A DNA stretch of 64,000 bases from NCBI RefSeq assembly GCF_008711325.1, contig NZ_VXDB01000009.1, positions 62,001 to 126,000 of the forward strand, read 5' to 3'. Shown in pieces: positions 17,524 through 21,479 of this stretch (positions within the stretch are counted from its first letter, which is position 1; every line of letters starts with the position of its first letter). A model generated the notes under the pieces. That model searched no databases. It saw only the letters and a program-made list of their open reading frames with translations, and was not told the DNA's origin. The translations under genes and the position numbers were made by a program. Origin of the DNA: Roseibium sediminis. Its GTDB lineage: Bacteria; Pseudomonadota; Alphaproteobacteria; Rhizobiales; Stappiaceae.

Positions 17524-17575
17524 GAGGTGAATGAAAACCGGCGGCATTACAAGCCGCGTTGATGGAGAAGAAAAC

Positions 17576-19048
17576 ATGCCAGCGGTGCAGGAAACAATCG
17601 ATCAGGTCAAGGCGATCGATGTTGACCAGTATAAATATGGCTTCGTAACGGACATCGAATCGGAAAAGGGCGCAAAGGGCCTTTCCGAGGAAACCGTGCG
17701 GTTTCTCTCTGCCAAGAAGAATGAGCCGGAGTGGATGACGGAGTGGCGTCTGGACGCGCTGCGCCGTTTCAGGACAATGACCGAGCCGGACTGGGCTCGC
17801 GTCAACTATCCGCCGATCGATCTGGATGACCTTTATTACTGGGCAGCTCCGAAGTCTGTTGAAGGGCCGAAGAGCCTGGACGAAGTCGATCCGGAACTGC
17901 TGGAAACCTACAAGAAGCTGGGCATTCCGCTGGCTGAACAGGAAATTCTGGCCGGTGTCGAGCCGAAGAACCGGGTTGCCGTTGATGCCGTGTTCGATTC
18001 CGTTTCCGTCGTCACCACTTTCAAGGAAGAGCTGAAGAAGGCGGGCGTGATCTTCTGCTCGATTTCCGAGGCGGTGCGCGAATATCCGGAACTGGTCAAG
18101 AAGTACCTCGGCACGGTGGTTCCGGTCACGGACAACTATTACGCAACGCTGAACTCCGCTGTCTTCTCCGACGGATCATTTGTCTACATTCCCGAAGGCG
18201 TTCGCTGCCCGATGGAACTGTCGACCTATTTCCGCATCAACGAGCAGAACACCGGTCAGTTCGAGCGCACGCTGATCATTGCCGACAAGGGCTCCTATGT
18301 CTCCTATCTGGAAGGCTGCACGGCGCCTCAGCGTGACGAGAACCAGCTGCATGCGGCCGTTGTGGAACTGATTGCGCTGGATGATGCCGAGATCAAGTAT
18401 TCCACGGTCCAGAACTGGTATCCGGGCGACAAGGACGGCAAGGGCGGCATCTACAACTTCGTCACCAAGCGCGGCGATTGCCGGGGCAAGAACTCCAAGA
18501 TCTCGTGGACGCAGGTGGAAACCGGTTCCGCGATCACCTGGAAGTATCCGTCCTGCATCCTGCGCGGCGAAAACTCCCGTGGCGAGTTCTACTCCATTGC
18601 TGTCTCCAACGGACACCAGCAGGTCGACAGCGGCACCAAGATGATCCATCTGGGCAAGAACTCGTCCAGCCGCATCATCTCCAAGGGCATTTCGGCAGGC
18701 AAGTCGCAGAACACCTATCGTGGTCTCGTCTCTGCCCACCGCAAGGCATCCAATGCGCGAAACTTCACCCAGTGCGACTCGCTCCTGATCGGTCAGGACT
18801 GCGGCGCACACACCGTGCCCTATATCGAGAGCAAGAACGCCTCAGCCCAGTTCGAACACGAGGCAACCACCTCGAAGATTTCTGATGACCAGATGTTCTA
18901 CTGCCTGCAGCGCGGCTTGAGCGAAGAAGAAGCCGTGGCGCTGATCGTCAATGGCTTCGTCAAGGACGTCATCCAGCAGCTGCCGATGGAATTCGCCGTC
19001 GAAGCCCAGAAGCTGATCTCGATCAGCCTTGAGGGCAGCGTGGGGTGA
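17576..19048 (+). CDS. sufB: Fe-S cluster assembly scaffold SufB
   Basis: A 490-residue SufB. The C-terminal beta-helix core includes [40 protein letters not shown]-like sequence and the conserved cysteine-containing AHTVPYIE region, followed by [20 protein letters not shown]. SufB receives sulfur from SufS and builds the nascent cluster in the SufBC2D complex in the cytoplasm. The ATG at 17576 follows GGAGAAG; the frame is open a little upstream, but that part is not family sequence. In this genome sufC does not follow directly: 1.7 kb of accessory DNA lies between. Confidence 0.97.
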
Positions 19049-19093
19049 TGTGGACGCTTCGACGGGAGTGGTTGGCAGGAGCGAGGTGAACCA

Positions 19094-19432
19094 TTGGGCT
19101 ATGCAATCAGCTACTTTGGAGGGCTGTTTATTCTCGCAGGTCGGTTCAAATGTTTCCTATTGGGAACATTGTTCGGATTGGCGTTTGAGGCTTCCAGAAA
19201 TTGGCTAGGCGAAGGTGCCATTTTTCTTTTTGGCGTCCACATGCTGCTGAGCTTCTGGTTAAGCCTCACGATGTATTGCGTCCTGTTTTCCAGACGAGTG
19301 CGATTGGACTTGTTGGGACATGATGTAAATCCGTTGTCTGCGTTTTTTATGCGCCTCGTCAGTCCCTTTGGGGTGTTTTGTTTATCATTCTGGCTGGGTC
19401 TTCTTGTTGGAGCAATTTTGATTAAACAGTAA
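19094..19432 (+). CDS. hypothetical small membrane protein
   Basis: A 112-residue protein that I do not recognise. Hydrophobic segments are at about residues 2-30, 42-66 and 88-110, suggesting three membrane spans with short basic loops (RRVRLD). It starts at a TTG at 19094 with GAGGTG six bases upstream; no in-frame ATG lies nearby. Its codons are more AT-rich than those of sufB and sufC, suggesting later arrival. It sits in the accessory segment that splits sufB from sufC. There is no evidence for a role in iron-sulfur assembly. Confidence 0.55.
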   Translation: MGYAISYFGGLFILAGRFKCFLLGTLFGLAFEASRNWLGEGAIFLFGVHMLLSFWLSLTMYCVLFSRRVRLDLLGHDVNPLSAFFMRLVSPFGVFCLSFWLGLLVGAILIKQ

Positions 19433-19524
19433 AGCGAGCCGAGTGTGAATGTGATCGAGAATGCGGACGTAAGCAAAAATGGAGAGGCTGACAAGTTAAC
19501 TGTGGGGTGATTGGGTTTCCCTAG

Positions 19525-19603
19525 TTCGTCATCCTCGGGCTTGTCCCGAGGATCTACTGACGGTGGAGGCATAACGGTTGTCTGGGTTTGTTTGCTTGAA
19601 GTC
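19525..19603 (+). repeat. palindromic repeat copy R1 plus decayed 5' copy of the GIY-YIG gene
   Basis: The palindrome ATCCTCGGG/CCCGAGGAT (arms 19531-19539 and 19545-19553, five-base loop) is followed by sequence matching the start of the GIY-YIG gene. Bases 19525-19603 align with 19787-19865 at 72 of 79 positions, covering the repeat, the spacer and the first eight codons after the TTG start. Here the frame stops after about 30 codons, so this is a remnant or a non-coding derivative. Confidence 0.8.
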
Positions 19604-19668
19604 GAACTACCTCAAGGTGGTTGCTTTGGTAGATAGGACTGAGAGCATATTCGGGTTGCGAGTTAGAT

Positions 19669-19697
19669 AGATCCTCGGGACAAGCCCGAGGATGACG
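19669..19697 (-). repeat. palindromic repeat copy R2
   Basis: The same 29-bp unit in inverted orientation (AGATCCTCGGG...CCCGAGGATGACG). With R1 it bounds a 171-bp inverted-repeat segment that contains the decayed GIY-YIG start. Perfect 9-bp stem. Confidence 0.85.
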
Positions 19698-19788
19698 GTC
19701 TAATTGGGAATGCTGGAAAGACACTTGAAGGTATGAGGTCGAGGGAATGAGAGGAATCACAAGGCGTTCAGCTGTCGGTGCCTTCCTT

Positions 19789-19817
19789 CGTCATCCTCGG
19801 GCTTGACCCGAGGATCT
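19789..19817 (+). repeat. palindromic repeat copy R3
   Basis: 29-bp unit CGTCATCCTCGGG-CTTGA-CCCGAGGATCT-like with a perfect 9-bp stem (19793-19801 and 19807-19815), directly upstream of the GIY-YIG gene. It shares CTTCCTT on its left with copy R5. Confidence 0.9.
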
Positions 19818-19839
19818 GCTGGCGGTGGAGGCATAACGG

Positions 19840-20181
19840 TTGTCCGGGTTTGTTTACATGATGTCAGACAAGCCCAGAGGTGTGATCTACACCGGTGTGA
19901 CGAGCGATCTGCAAAAGCGAATTTGGGAACATAAAGAGGAGATCAGGAAGGGGTTCACTTCGAAGTACAAGGCGAAAAATCTGGTGTGGTTTGAGACCCA
20001 TCCGAACATTGTCTTGGCGATCCAGCGAGAGAAATCACTGAAGCGCTATCTGCGCGAGTGGAAAATTCGACTAATCGAAGAGCTGAATCCAACCTGGAAT
20101 GATCTTTATGAACGAATGGGCGAGATCGAGAATGTTTATGAGCCGCACGAAAATACGAGGAAGTGGGATGACTATAATTAG
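19840..20181 (+). CDS. GIY-YIG domain nuclease
   Basis: A 113-residue single-domain GIY-YIG protein of the small UPF0213/YhbQ-like class. The first beta strand reads GFVYMMSDKPRG, followed by VIYTGVTSDLQKRIWEHK, which holds the YIG-type strand and the conserved arginine; the catalytic glutamate is probably in NPTWNDLYE. The family are metal-dependent DNA nucleases, often associated with mobile DNA. The family-like N-terminus MSGFVYMM requires the TTG at 19840; the ATGs at 19858 and 19861 would cut off the first strand. Basic residues abound (KRYLREWKIR). Palindromic repeats flank the gene on both sides. Confidence 0.8.
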   Translation: MSGFVYMMSDKPRGVIYTGVTSDLQKRIWEHKEEIRKGFTSKYKAKNLVWFETHPNIVLAIQREKSLKRYLREWKIRLIEELNPTWNDLYERMGEIENVYEPHENTRKWDDYN

Positions 20182-20211
20182 TTCGAACAATCTTCGTGTG
20201 GTGGCTTGCGT

Positions 20212-20240
20212 AGATCCTCGGGACAAGCCCGAGGATGACG
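20212..20240 (-). repeat. palindromic repeat copy R4
   Basis: The 29-bp unit in inverted orientation, 31 bases after the GIY-YIG stop, with the same perfect 9-bp stem. It forms the right end of the putative element with R3. Confidence 0.88.
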
Positions 20241-20328
20241 TTCCTGCTTGTGGCGATGAATGAAGCTAGAGGCCTGCGGATGATGTACAAAACTGGGAAA
20301 CAACGCACACGAATGCCGTTCTTTCCTT

Positions 20329-20357
20329 CGTCATCCTCGGGCTTGACCCGAGGATCT
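20329..20357 (+). repeat. palindromic repeat copy R5
   Basis: The 29-bp unit in direct orientation, identical to R3 in its core and again preceded by CTTTCCTT or a close variant. A short tail similar to that of R1 (ACAGACGGTGG) follows. The next gene starts 23 bases further on. Confidence 0.88.
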
Positions 20358-20380
20358 ACAGACGGTGGGGTGAAACGAAA

Positions 20381-20725
20381 ATGAGCCGCGGAAATGATCA
20401 TGAGGAACTGGCAGTGGCCCTGTCCCAGATCAAGGCTGCAGAAAACTCATTTAACAAACAAGACGGTCTTGAGAGCCTTCGGCGCATTCAAGGTCAGGAA
20501 GCGAGAGAAAGAAGCGCAGGCGCTTTTTTCGGTATTTGCATTTTGGTCTGCGGATTTGGGTTTTTCACCGGTTACGCGACTTATGCATTTGGAATAATGG
20601 GCTTTTTAGCCTTTGCATGTTTTGCGGTCAGCTTTTGGCGCTACCGGATTATGCAAAGAAAGAGGGCCGAAGACATGCGCCTTATGGCGGAACGAAACAC
20701 GACGGATAGTGAAACGGTAGGCTAG
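20381..20725 (+). CDS. hypothetical membrane protein upstream of sufC
   Basis: A 114-residue protein that I do not recognise. Residues 1-45 are charged and probably helical (MSRGNDHEELAVALSQIKAA), two hydrophobic spans follow at about 46-66 and 69-86 with a very short turn, and the C-terminal tail is basic then acidic (RIMQRKRAEDMRLM). The stop is one base before the sufC ATG, so the two are very likely co-translated. It is the last part of the accessory segment between sufB and sufC. A link to SUF function is only suggested by this coupling. Confidence 0.6.
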   Translation: MSRGNDHEELAVALSQIKAAENSFNKQDGLESLRRIQGQEARERSAGAFFGICILVCGFGFFTGYATYAFGIMGFLAFACFAVSFWRYRIMQRKRAEDMRLMAERNTTDSETVG

Positions 20726-20726
20726 A

Positions 20727-21479
20727 ATGCTTGAGATCAAGAACCTGCACGCGCGTATCGCGGAAGATGAAACCGAAATCCTGCGCGGGATCGACCTGAC
20801 CATCAAGGCGGGTGAAGTGCATGCCATCATGGGCCCGAACGGCTCGGGCAAGTCCACGTTGTCCTACATTCTGGCCGGTAAGGATGACTATGAAGTCACC
20901 GAAGGCGAGATCCTGTTCAATGGCGAAAACATGCTGGACATGGAGCCGGACGAGCGGGCAGCGGCGGGTATGTTTCTGGCGTTCCAGTACCCGATCGAAA
21001 TTCCGGGTGTTGCCACGATGGAATTCCTGAAGACCGCGATGAACGCACAGCGCAAGGCGCGCGGCGAAGATGCGCTGTCCATTCCCGAGTTCATGAAGCG
21101 CGTCAAGGAGCAGGCATCCTACCTGAACGTCTCCATGGACATGCTGAAGCGCCCGCTGAATGTCGGCTTCTCCGGTGGTGAGAAGAAGCGTGCGGAAATC
21201 CTGCAGATGTCGCTGCTTGAGCCGAAGCTCTGTGTACTTGACGAAACCGACTCCGGCCTCGATATCGACGCCCTGCGCATCGTTTCCGAAGGCGTCAACA
21301 AGCTGCGCTCTCCGGAGCGGGCGATGGTTGTCATCACCCACTACCAGCGTCTTCTGGACCACATTGTTCCCGATGTTGTCCACGTGTTGTCCAAGGGCCG
21401 CATCGTGAAGACCGGTGACAAGGATCTGGCGCTTGAGCTGGAAAAGAACGGTTACGCTGACTACGTCAACGCGGCCTAA
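20727..21479 (+). CDS. sufC: Fe-S cluster assembly ATPase SufC
   Basis: A 250-residue ABC-type ATPase of the SUF complex. Walker A is GPNGSGKST near residues 35-43, the Q-loop region is FLAFQYPIEIPG, the signature is GFSGGEKKRAEILQ and Walker B ends LCVLDETDSGLD. SufC binds SufB and SufD in the cytoplasm and drives the conformational change that exposes the cluster-building site. The start is one base after the upstream hypothetical gene, so its translation probably depends on read-through of the accessory segment. sufD follows after 18 bases. Confidence 0.97.
   Translation: MLEIKNLHARIAEDETEILRGIDLTIKAGEVHAIMGPNGSGKSTLSYILAGKDDYEVTEGEILFNGENMLDMEPDERAAAGMFLAFQYPIEIPGVATMEFLKTAMNAQRKARGEDALSIPEFMKRVKEQASYLNVSMDMLKRPLNVGFSGGEKKRAEILQMSLLEPKLCVLDETDSGLDIDALRIVSEGVNKLRSPERAMVVITHYQRLLDHIVPDVVHVLSKGRIVKTGDKDLALELEKNGYADYVNAA

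Follow-up and report, generated by a model that had tools for sequence, protein, structure and literature searches.

Could a small nuclease gene that lies between two inverted copies of one palindrome be the partner that moves this palindrome? The question is raised by a 64,000-nucleotide stretch of the Roseibium sediminis genome (contig NZ_VXDB01000009.1, positions 62,001 to 126,000; the whole stretch is called the window), in which five copies of a 29-bp palindrome lie within 831 bases in the orientations + - + - +, and the third and fourth copies enclose the gene of a GIY-YIG nuclease. We consider it probable that this gene and its two palindromes form a mobile unit that works like a REPtron. 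The likeness to REPtrons, whose enzyme is RAYT (TnpAREP), lies in a small gene for a DNA-processing enzyme that is bounded by inverted, tetranucleotide-tagged hairpins, the repetitive extragenic palindromes or REPs (PMC2817692, PMC3116915, PMC8266576, PMC3733652). RAYT is an HUH tyrosine transposase and its tag is GTAG, whereas here the enzyme is of the GIY-YIG type and the tag is CGTC. Because the enzyme is GIY-YIG and not HUH, the element is not filed as a RAYT or REPtron, and is only said to work like one.

The CGTC repeats and the element they bound

The five copies (R1 to R5, Table 1) share the unit CGTCATCCTCGGGCTTG[T/A]CCCGAGGATCT, with at most one base difference in 29 bp between any two of them. 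Each is built from CGTC, the arm ATCCTCGGG, a loop CTTGT or CTTGA, the arm CCCGAGGAT and a tail of CTAC or similar. The window contains six perfect hairpins with a 9-bp stem and a 5-nt loop, five of which are R1 to R5; 20 random windows drawn from a first-order Markov model held 0.3 on average and 3 at most, and a chance origin of the palindromes is thereby ruled out. CGTC-tagged REPs are defined by a CGTC tag, a stem of 8-9 bp starting with AT, a loop of 4-5 nt and a short CCA-like tail, and among them head-out (HH) dimers predominate (Di Nocera et al. 2013, PMC3733652). R1 to R5 have the CGTC tag, a 9-bp stem that starts with AT, a 5-nt loop and a short tail, and both R1-R2 and R3-R4 are head-out dimers. 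The window repeat is a CGTC-REP.

The open reading frame (ORF) enclosed by R3 and R4, at distances of 22 and 30 bp, encodes a 113-residue protein with the domain PF01541 GIY-YIG (Pfam, E 1.9e-13); neither a NUMOD nor any other domain was found in Pfam at E up to 0.001. An original prediction, made from the window alone, had described both the series of five alternating palindromes and the inverted pair around a small GIY-YIG gene, and the coordinates, the domain match and the spacers bear it out on both counts.

GIY-YIG enzymes are recognised by the GIY and YIG motifs together with an Arg, a His or Tyr, a Glu and an Asn. Residues Y5, Y16, G18, R26, H30, E63 and N82 (numbered from residue 2) are invariant in 30 aligned sequences, and the window nuclease has intact catalytic residues and the motif set of the superfamily. 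Its AlphaFold2 model (mean pLDDT 88) adopts the GIY-YIG fold. Neither Foldseek nor a sequence search of the PDB returned a match below 0.001, the matches being weak ones to GIY-YIG proteins; NCBIfam gave sub-threshold matches only (two of four proteins) and PHROGs none (two proteins). By sequence the nuclease belongs to a clade distinct from the UPF0213/YhbQ type (1zg2), UvrC and Slx1. The nucleases are single-domain proteins of about 95-113 residues, and the dN/dS medians of 0.07 and 0.10 indicate strong purifying selection on their genes.

R1 and R2, not recognised as a unit in the original prediction, appear to be what is left of another copy of the element after an internal deletion: the first 90 nt, counted from R1, match R3 and the start of the nuclease gene at 87% identity, and a 54-nt stretch around R2 matches the R4 region at 81%. 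With the REP itself excluded, the match to the element ends scores 37 on the left and only 8 on the right. Element termini from between which the gene has been deleted, a trait of miniature inverted-repeat transposable elements (MITEs) and of the REP dimers named REPINs, are thus present in R1-R2.

Pairing of nucleases and hairpins

Is this plan peculiar to one locus? Searches yielded 168 loci with a GIY-YIG match, of which 16 were removed as duplicates and, from the remaining 152, three for short flanks; since the best matches were kept per search, the 149 relatives are biased to close ones. With a measure that needs no REP detector, an inverted repeat scoring at least 16 between the 250-bp flanks was found in 106 of the 149. 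Controls from the same loci reached this score in 1 of 1778 shifted windows and in 5 of 307 other ORFs (4 of 101 when only other ORFs below 500 bp are counted). Random placement of REPs around GIY-YIG genes is ruled out by these controls. By class of identity the repeat is present in 53/60 (at least 70%), 24/33 (55-70%), 27/46 (48-55%) and 2/10 loci (below 48%). A GIY-YIG gene thus does occupy the place of RAYT in a REP-like architecture, as had been proposed from the window only, and it does so generally; the accompanying question of whether inverted pairs flank GIY-YIG genes elsewhere is answered in the affirmative, the siblings in the same genome included.

A strict CGTC detector gave the same picture for 112 loci, a set that still contained duplicates: within 400 bp, 72 have a + copy upstream and a - copy downstream, 15 the upstream + copy only, 3 the downstream - copy only and 22 neither. 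Among the 152 genes, 84 have REPs as nearest neighbours on both sides, and 65 of these pairs are head-out. In the window clade, 42 loci with exact compact ends share the plan at a length of 417-494 bp (median 428). An intact-gene set was obtained by excluding 13 of the 152 genes as broken or odd-length ORFs. At five loci (L099, L101, L103, L105 and L106) the frame of the nuclease gene is broken and the REP pair still surrounds it, as in decaying elements.

A test across the phylum added 26 new loci among at most 30 listed, from 75 positive genomes. Twelve lie outside the class, and the inverted pair was seen at six of them, always of the GTCAT(T/C)CCCGCG type. The Neisseria gonorrhoeae homologue is 47.8% identical over residues 1-90, and its ORF is surrounded by CGTCATTCCCGCG...GGGAATCTAG repeats of the dRS3 type, the kind that also makes up these six pairs.

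The host genome itself (4.99 Mb; the window lies on contig C117) contains two further related GIY-YIG genes, 51% and 44% identical to the window protein, and both are bounded by inverted pairs, each of a different palindrome. The flanks of the three genes score 27, 21 and 23 as own pairs and at most 11 as cross-pairs. Among five further multi-gene genomes, G428 and G117 likewise have gene-specific palindromes where a pair exists, and each also has one gene with no pair.

Hairpin type follows nuclease clade. Genes of the window clade mostly occur with CGTCATCCTCGGGCTTGTCCCGAGGATCT and those of the next clade mostly with CTTGACCCGAGGATCCA, while more distant genes have GGCCGGG, CGCCGGG, TCTCGGA and other hairpins; the tails are mostly CTGC, CTAC or CTAA in the window clade and mostly CCA in the others. 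At locus L102 a stem change, CTAGGG, is common to both REP copies. When all clades are pooled, an element carries two identical REPs in 20 of 65 cases, more often than random re-pairing gives (p 0.0005). Given the anatomy of the element, the selection on the gene and the clade-specific pairing, the enzyme likely acts on the hairpin of its own element.

Probable movement of the unit and the explanations that compete

Signs of movement come from several genera. In one genus of Rhizobiaceae, units of about 510 bp with 67-bp inverted ends occur in different surroundings within one genome, and several pairs, such as L218 and L219 (513 bp), are homologous over the unit only; L218 and L222 represent one orthologous site in two species, and at L217 the right end is incomplete. 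The loci of this genus (g68; L216-L223) have an extended REP type, in which a structured stretch of about 30 nt replaces the loop of the CGTC hairpin and gives rise to the 67-bp ends. The L219 element is nested inside a longer palindromic intergenic repeat of the CTCCCCC...GGGGGAG type.

Near elements, 8 of 11 head-out dimers (those independent of the element's own REPs) share inner sequence with one element end, compared to 0.0 for shuffled sequences at that score; one of the 11 matches both ends at score 10, and two contain a piece of the nuclease gene as judged by eye. Deleted copies stand beside an intact unit in S. meliloti (by eye) and in Rhizobium CIAT894, the dimers of which are among the 11.

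In the fnrL-fixJ gap of Sphingobium plasmids the element is present in 7 records and absent from 5 (S. herbicidovorans was excluded from the alignment). One of the occupied records, TYG73, has lost a base of the nuclease gene. Where its relatives have the element, TomTYG64 (L243) has a single symmetric palindrome that carries a CGTC head at each end and is identical to a fusion of the left REP's left arm with the right REP; this exact form was found in TYG64 only, TYG74 has a similar but altered palindrome, and TYG72 and TYG65 have other sequence. No target-site duplication is obvious at this site, the gene-less records TYG64 and TYG74 keeping the palindrome in exact and altered form, respectively. 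For L240, L239 and the window, no further plasmid record contained the greater part of the surrounding sequence used as query, and all 8 records found around L237 retain the nuclease gene. Taken together, the homology limited to the unit, the deleted copies and the occupied and empty states of one site indicate that the REP-bounded unit likely moves or has moved.

How could the nuclease be involved? We hypothesize that the mobile entity consists of two inverted head-out CGTC-REPs and the GIY-YIG gene (452 bp in the window). On the lagging strand or in incoming single-stranded DNA, a REP would fold into a hairpin with an unpaired CGTC head, and the nuclease would recognise its cognate hairpin and nick beside it. 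Repair or replication might then copy the unit, or internally deleted REP-REP derivatives of it, to another place, or remove the unit. The deleted derivatives, such as R1-R2 and the head-out dimers elsewhere, and the single REPs would be its non-autonomous products. Three traits are shared with REPtrons and REPINs: head-out dimers as miniature derivatives, a co-variation of enzyme and hairpin by clade, and repeats that can outlive the gene. From the start the nuclease had been proposed to recognise the palindrome and to take part in spreading it; clade-specific pairing, element-limited homology and the deleted derivatives speak for this, and we infer both the cleavage of the hairpin and the driving role of the enzyme from the sequences. 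The weakest step is the nuclease as the putative mover of the unit, and GIY-YIG enzymes are not known to have strand-transfer activity.

If such an enzyme spreads the repeat, does repeat number follow the gene, as the original prediction expected? The window-type repeat, with one mismatch allowed, occurs in 60 of 199 Rhizobiaceae genomes (the family of G083, the label being judged from identical genes in named records), that is, in all 10 that carry the window-type gene (two matches partial) and in 50 of the 189 that do not (Fisher p 3.5e-6). Among 249 genomes of the order, at least five matches to a generic CTTG-loop CGTC pattern were found in 74/131 with a GIY-YIG match vs 24/118 without one (Fisher p 4e-9; within-family permutation p 0.004 and 0.003). 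The pattern occurs 0-261 times per genome (median 7 in genomes with the gene), and a reversed control pattern 2 times in total. This association is as expected, yet it contradicts only in part the refuting outcome of an equal abundance of the repeat in genomes without the gene, since many genomes that lack it carry equal or higher copy numbers. We searched 20 repeat-bearing genomes that had no match in the first search with a profile, namely 14 of the 20 gene-less genomes of the order with at least 10 pattern matches and 6 gene-less Rhizobiaceae, two of which had only 5 repeat copies; in 17 of the 20, completeness is at least 90% and contamination at most 5%. Such a gene was absent from 18, and the two profile matches belong to other GIY-YIG clades and have no CGTC pair. 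Because repeat-bearing gene-less genomes are common, with 18 of 20 confirmed by profile, repeats can persist in the absence of the gene, and it is ruled out that they are kept only where the gene is present.

These gene-less genomes are one of several points that weigh against a nuclease-driven mobile unit. The exact palindrome of the window was found at this locus alone in its own genome, with no spread beyond it, and a cognate REP dispersed in many host copies, as in REPtrons, is not seen there; what is scattered, as the original prediction had held for the palindrome itself, are other CGTC-type repeats (30 matches to the generic pattern), and some other genomes do have dispersed repeats of the window type. 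In 43 of the 149 relatives the inverted repeat does not reach the threshold. When flanks were swapped at random between loci, 53 of 149 still reached it, because many loci share one palindrome. In three multi-gene genomes (G276, G163 and partly G235) cross-pairs score as high as own pairs, the copies being related, and some genes have no own pair. Concerted change of the REPs within each element was looked for in the window clade and not found there, identical REPs (12/43) being no more frequent than expected by chance (re-pairing p 0.35). The homology between L220 and L221 spans 743 bp and continues into neighbouring repeats, and the TYG64 state can be read either as an excision product or scar or as a pre-insertion target.

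The window clade, moreover, nearly always stays in one place. Fifty-five of its 60 loci form one group that shares both flanking neighbours, and over 52 loci the distances of the gene correlate with those of its neighbours (Mantel, gene-SufB 0.47, gene-SufC 0.34, SufB-SufC 0.73). In view of this nearly constant sufB-sufC position and this correlation, the window clade is a resident rather than a jumper.

Stable residence is what would be expected of an enzyme that processes single-stranded DNA and does not move. The nearest precedent are the Ssn GIY-YIG endonucleases, which act on single-stranded DNA, and the NTS repeat of Neisseria. In this genus, a GIY-YIG enzyme reportedly cleaves single-stranded DNA site-specifically in connection with natural transformation, and the N. 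gonorrhoeae ORF among CGTCATTCCCGCG-type repeats is presumably Ssn itself. A resident enzyme of this kind would cut its cognate repeat and tune DNA uptake or recombination, the REPs being kept as recognition sites and spread by other means. The strong purifying selection, the stable position of the window clade in the suf operon and the Neisseria relative among dRS3-type repeats agree with this explanation, dRS3 corresponding to the CGTC-1 repeats of the Neisseriae (PMC3733652). Both systems have in common a small GIY-YIG enzyme of a single domain that works on a dispersed repeat. By itself, however, residence leaves unexplained the unit-limited homology in new contexts, the deleted copies and the presence or absence of the element at one site, and it is this anatomy of a mobile unit, with its paired termini, that would go beyond the Ssn work. 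We regard the resident enzyme as an unlikely explanation when taken alone, and as the most serious competitor of the mobile unit; a nuclease that cuts hairpins and mobilises the unit and an Ssn-like endonuclease can be compatible with each other.

The suf locus also brings to mind a homing-type endonuclease of the sufB-sufC gap, which would cut empty sites and be copied in by recombination, the REPs being incidental or terminators. The gene adjoins sufC in 56 of the 60 window-clade loci and its distribution is patchy, with 5 of 61 genomes in its own family (which holds Roseibium and Pannonibacter) and 10 of 199 Rhizobiaceae. Within the mostly Rhizobiaceae set, the divergence of the gene is roughly double that of SufC (mean protein distance 0.211 vs 0.108), and between this set and the own family the two distances are 0.232 and 0.246. 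The latter pair of values suggests that the gene may have crossed between the families into the same gap after the hosts had split, as homing would have it. Relatives lacking the gene have short gaps or unrelated small ORFs and, by eye, no REPs. Against homing stand the other clades, which occupy varied places and retain the REP pair, so that the GIY-YIG clade as a whole is untied to any one target gene. At the non-suf loci L094, L098, L099 and L102 the REPs still accompany the gene (at L094 with the downstream REP in the opposite orientation). The single-domain protein also differs from GIY-YIG homing endonucleases (I-TevI and free-standing phage types) in the lack of NUMOD or other extra domains found with Pfam, and the element in its REP pairs. 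Finally, the remaining correlation of the gene with SufB and SufC distances is what vertical descent with losses would produce. We consider homing improbable.

A chance or indirect association, with REPs as intergenic terminators and GIY-YIG genes merely situated in REP-rich intergenic DNA, is strongly disfavoured and the least probable explanation by far, for although REPs lie mainly between genes and on their downstream side (PMC3733652), many genomes have REPs and no gene, and for 36 of the 152 genes the nearest-REP detector finds none within 250 bp to the left or right, it does not account for the 106 of 149 loci against the shifted windows and other ORFs, for the head-out orientation, or for gene-specific palindromes within one genome.

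What would a REP-bounded nuclease unit mean for the repeats at large? CGTC-REPs are widespread, mostly in Alphaproteobacteria and also in Neisseria, and in 2013 they had no candidate enzyme: in the available text of that survey they are said to 'apparently lack' a partner enzyme or transposase, and the term GIY does not occur in it (PMC3733652). In our loci GIY-YIG genes occupy that place, and the nuclease is perhaps the partner that appeared to be lacking. GIY-YIG genes of other clades at L276 and L277 have no flanking CGTC pair. We found no paper that joins GIY-YIG enzymes with CGTC-REPs in the literature searched, outside of which lay most subscription journals and all preprints. The findings suggest that the nuclease may have contributed to the spread of a repeat class to which the papers that we found assign no enzyme. 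Our analysis thus names a candidate, predicts gene by gene which nuclease pairs with which hairpin, and reduces the question to one protein of 95-113 residues and a 30-nt hairpin. That CGTC-REPs across the Proteobacteria, the dRS3 repeats of Neisseria included, are the non-autonomous progeny of REP-GIY-YIG-REP elements, mobilised by a hairpin-recognising nuclease that is neither HUH nor DDE, is a wider proposal that we put forward tentatively and hold to be somewhat less probable than its negation. If the nuclease does drive the spread, a second, unrelated enzyme fold would have reached the REPtron way of life.

Neighbouring features of the locus

Table 1. Features of the element and its surroundings (positions in the window)
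Feature	Position	Strand	Remark
REP R1	19527-19555	+	
REP R2	19669-19697	-	
REP R3	19789-19817	+	left terminus of element, loop CTTGA
REP R4	20212-20240	-	right terminus of element, loop CTTGT
REP R5	20329-20357	+	single copy, loop CTTGA
Complete element, R3 - GIY-YIG gene - R4	19789-20240	+	CGTC heads outward, 452 bp
GIY-YIG nuclease gene	19840-20181	+	TTG start, 113 aa, intact
R1-R2 unit, putative internally deleted derivative of element	19527-19697	+	identity to both element ends
sufB	17531-19048	+	host gene upstream of element; name from sequence reading
sufC	20727-21479	+	host gene downstream of element; name from sequence reading
Small membrane-protein-like ORF	20381-20725	+	adjoins element, lies outside it

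A second dispersed family of the CGTC type is present in the host genome. It forms head-out dimers of two different hairpins, TCCTCGGCCTTGAGCCGAGGA with GGTCGGGCTTGACCCGACC or similar, at C40:261640, 317783, 318936, 319938 and 320167, C62:18882 and 37858, and C117:159082 (L006-L012 and L014), and no GIY-YIG partner was seen at the six of these eight loci that were read.

The whole array of repeats and nuclease gene sits in the gap between sufB and sufC. In 29 other congeners (L187-L215) this gap measures 62-87 bp in 17 cases; 10 are longer (214-830 bp), lack the gene and have other small ORFs, and 2 carry the nuclease gene. No REPs were seen by eye in the gene-less gaps, of which those above 700 bp were viewed at their ends only. 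The empty-site comparison at this locus was keyed on sufC; the small ORF next to the element is present in only 2 of 61 genomes, with relatives in 1 of the 60 other genomes of the own family. Two further congeners, L194 and L199, also have it between sufB and sufC. In this genus the gap (window positions 19048-20727) is a hot spot of insertion.
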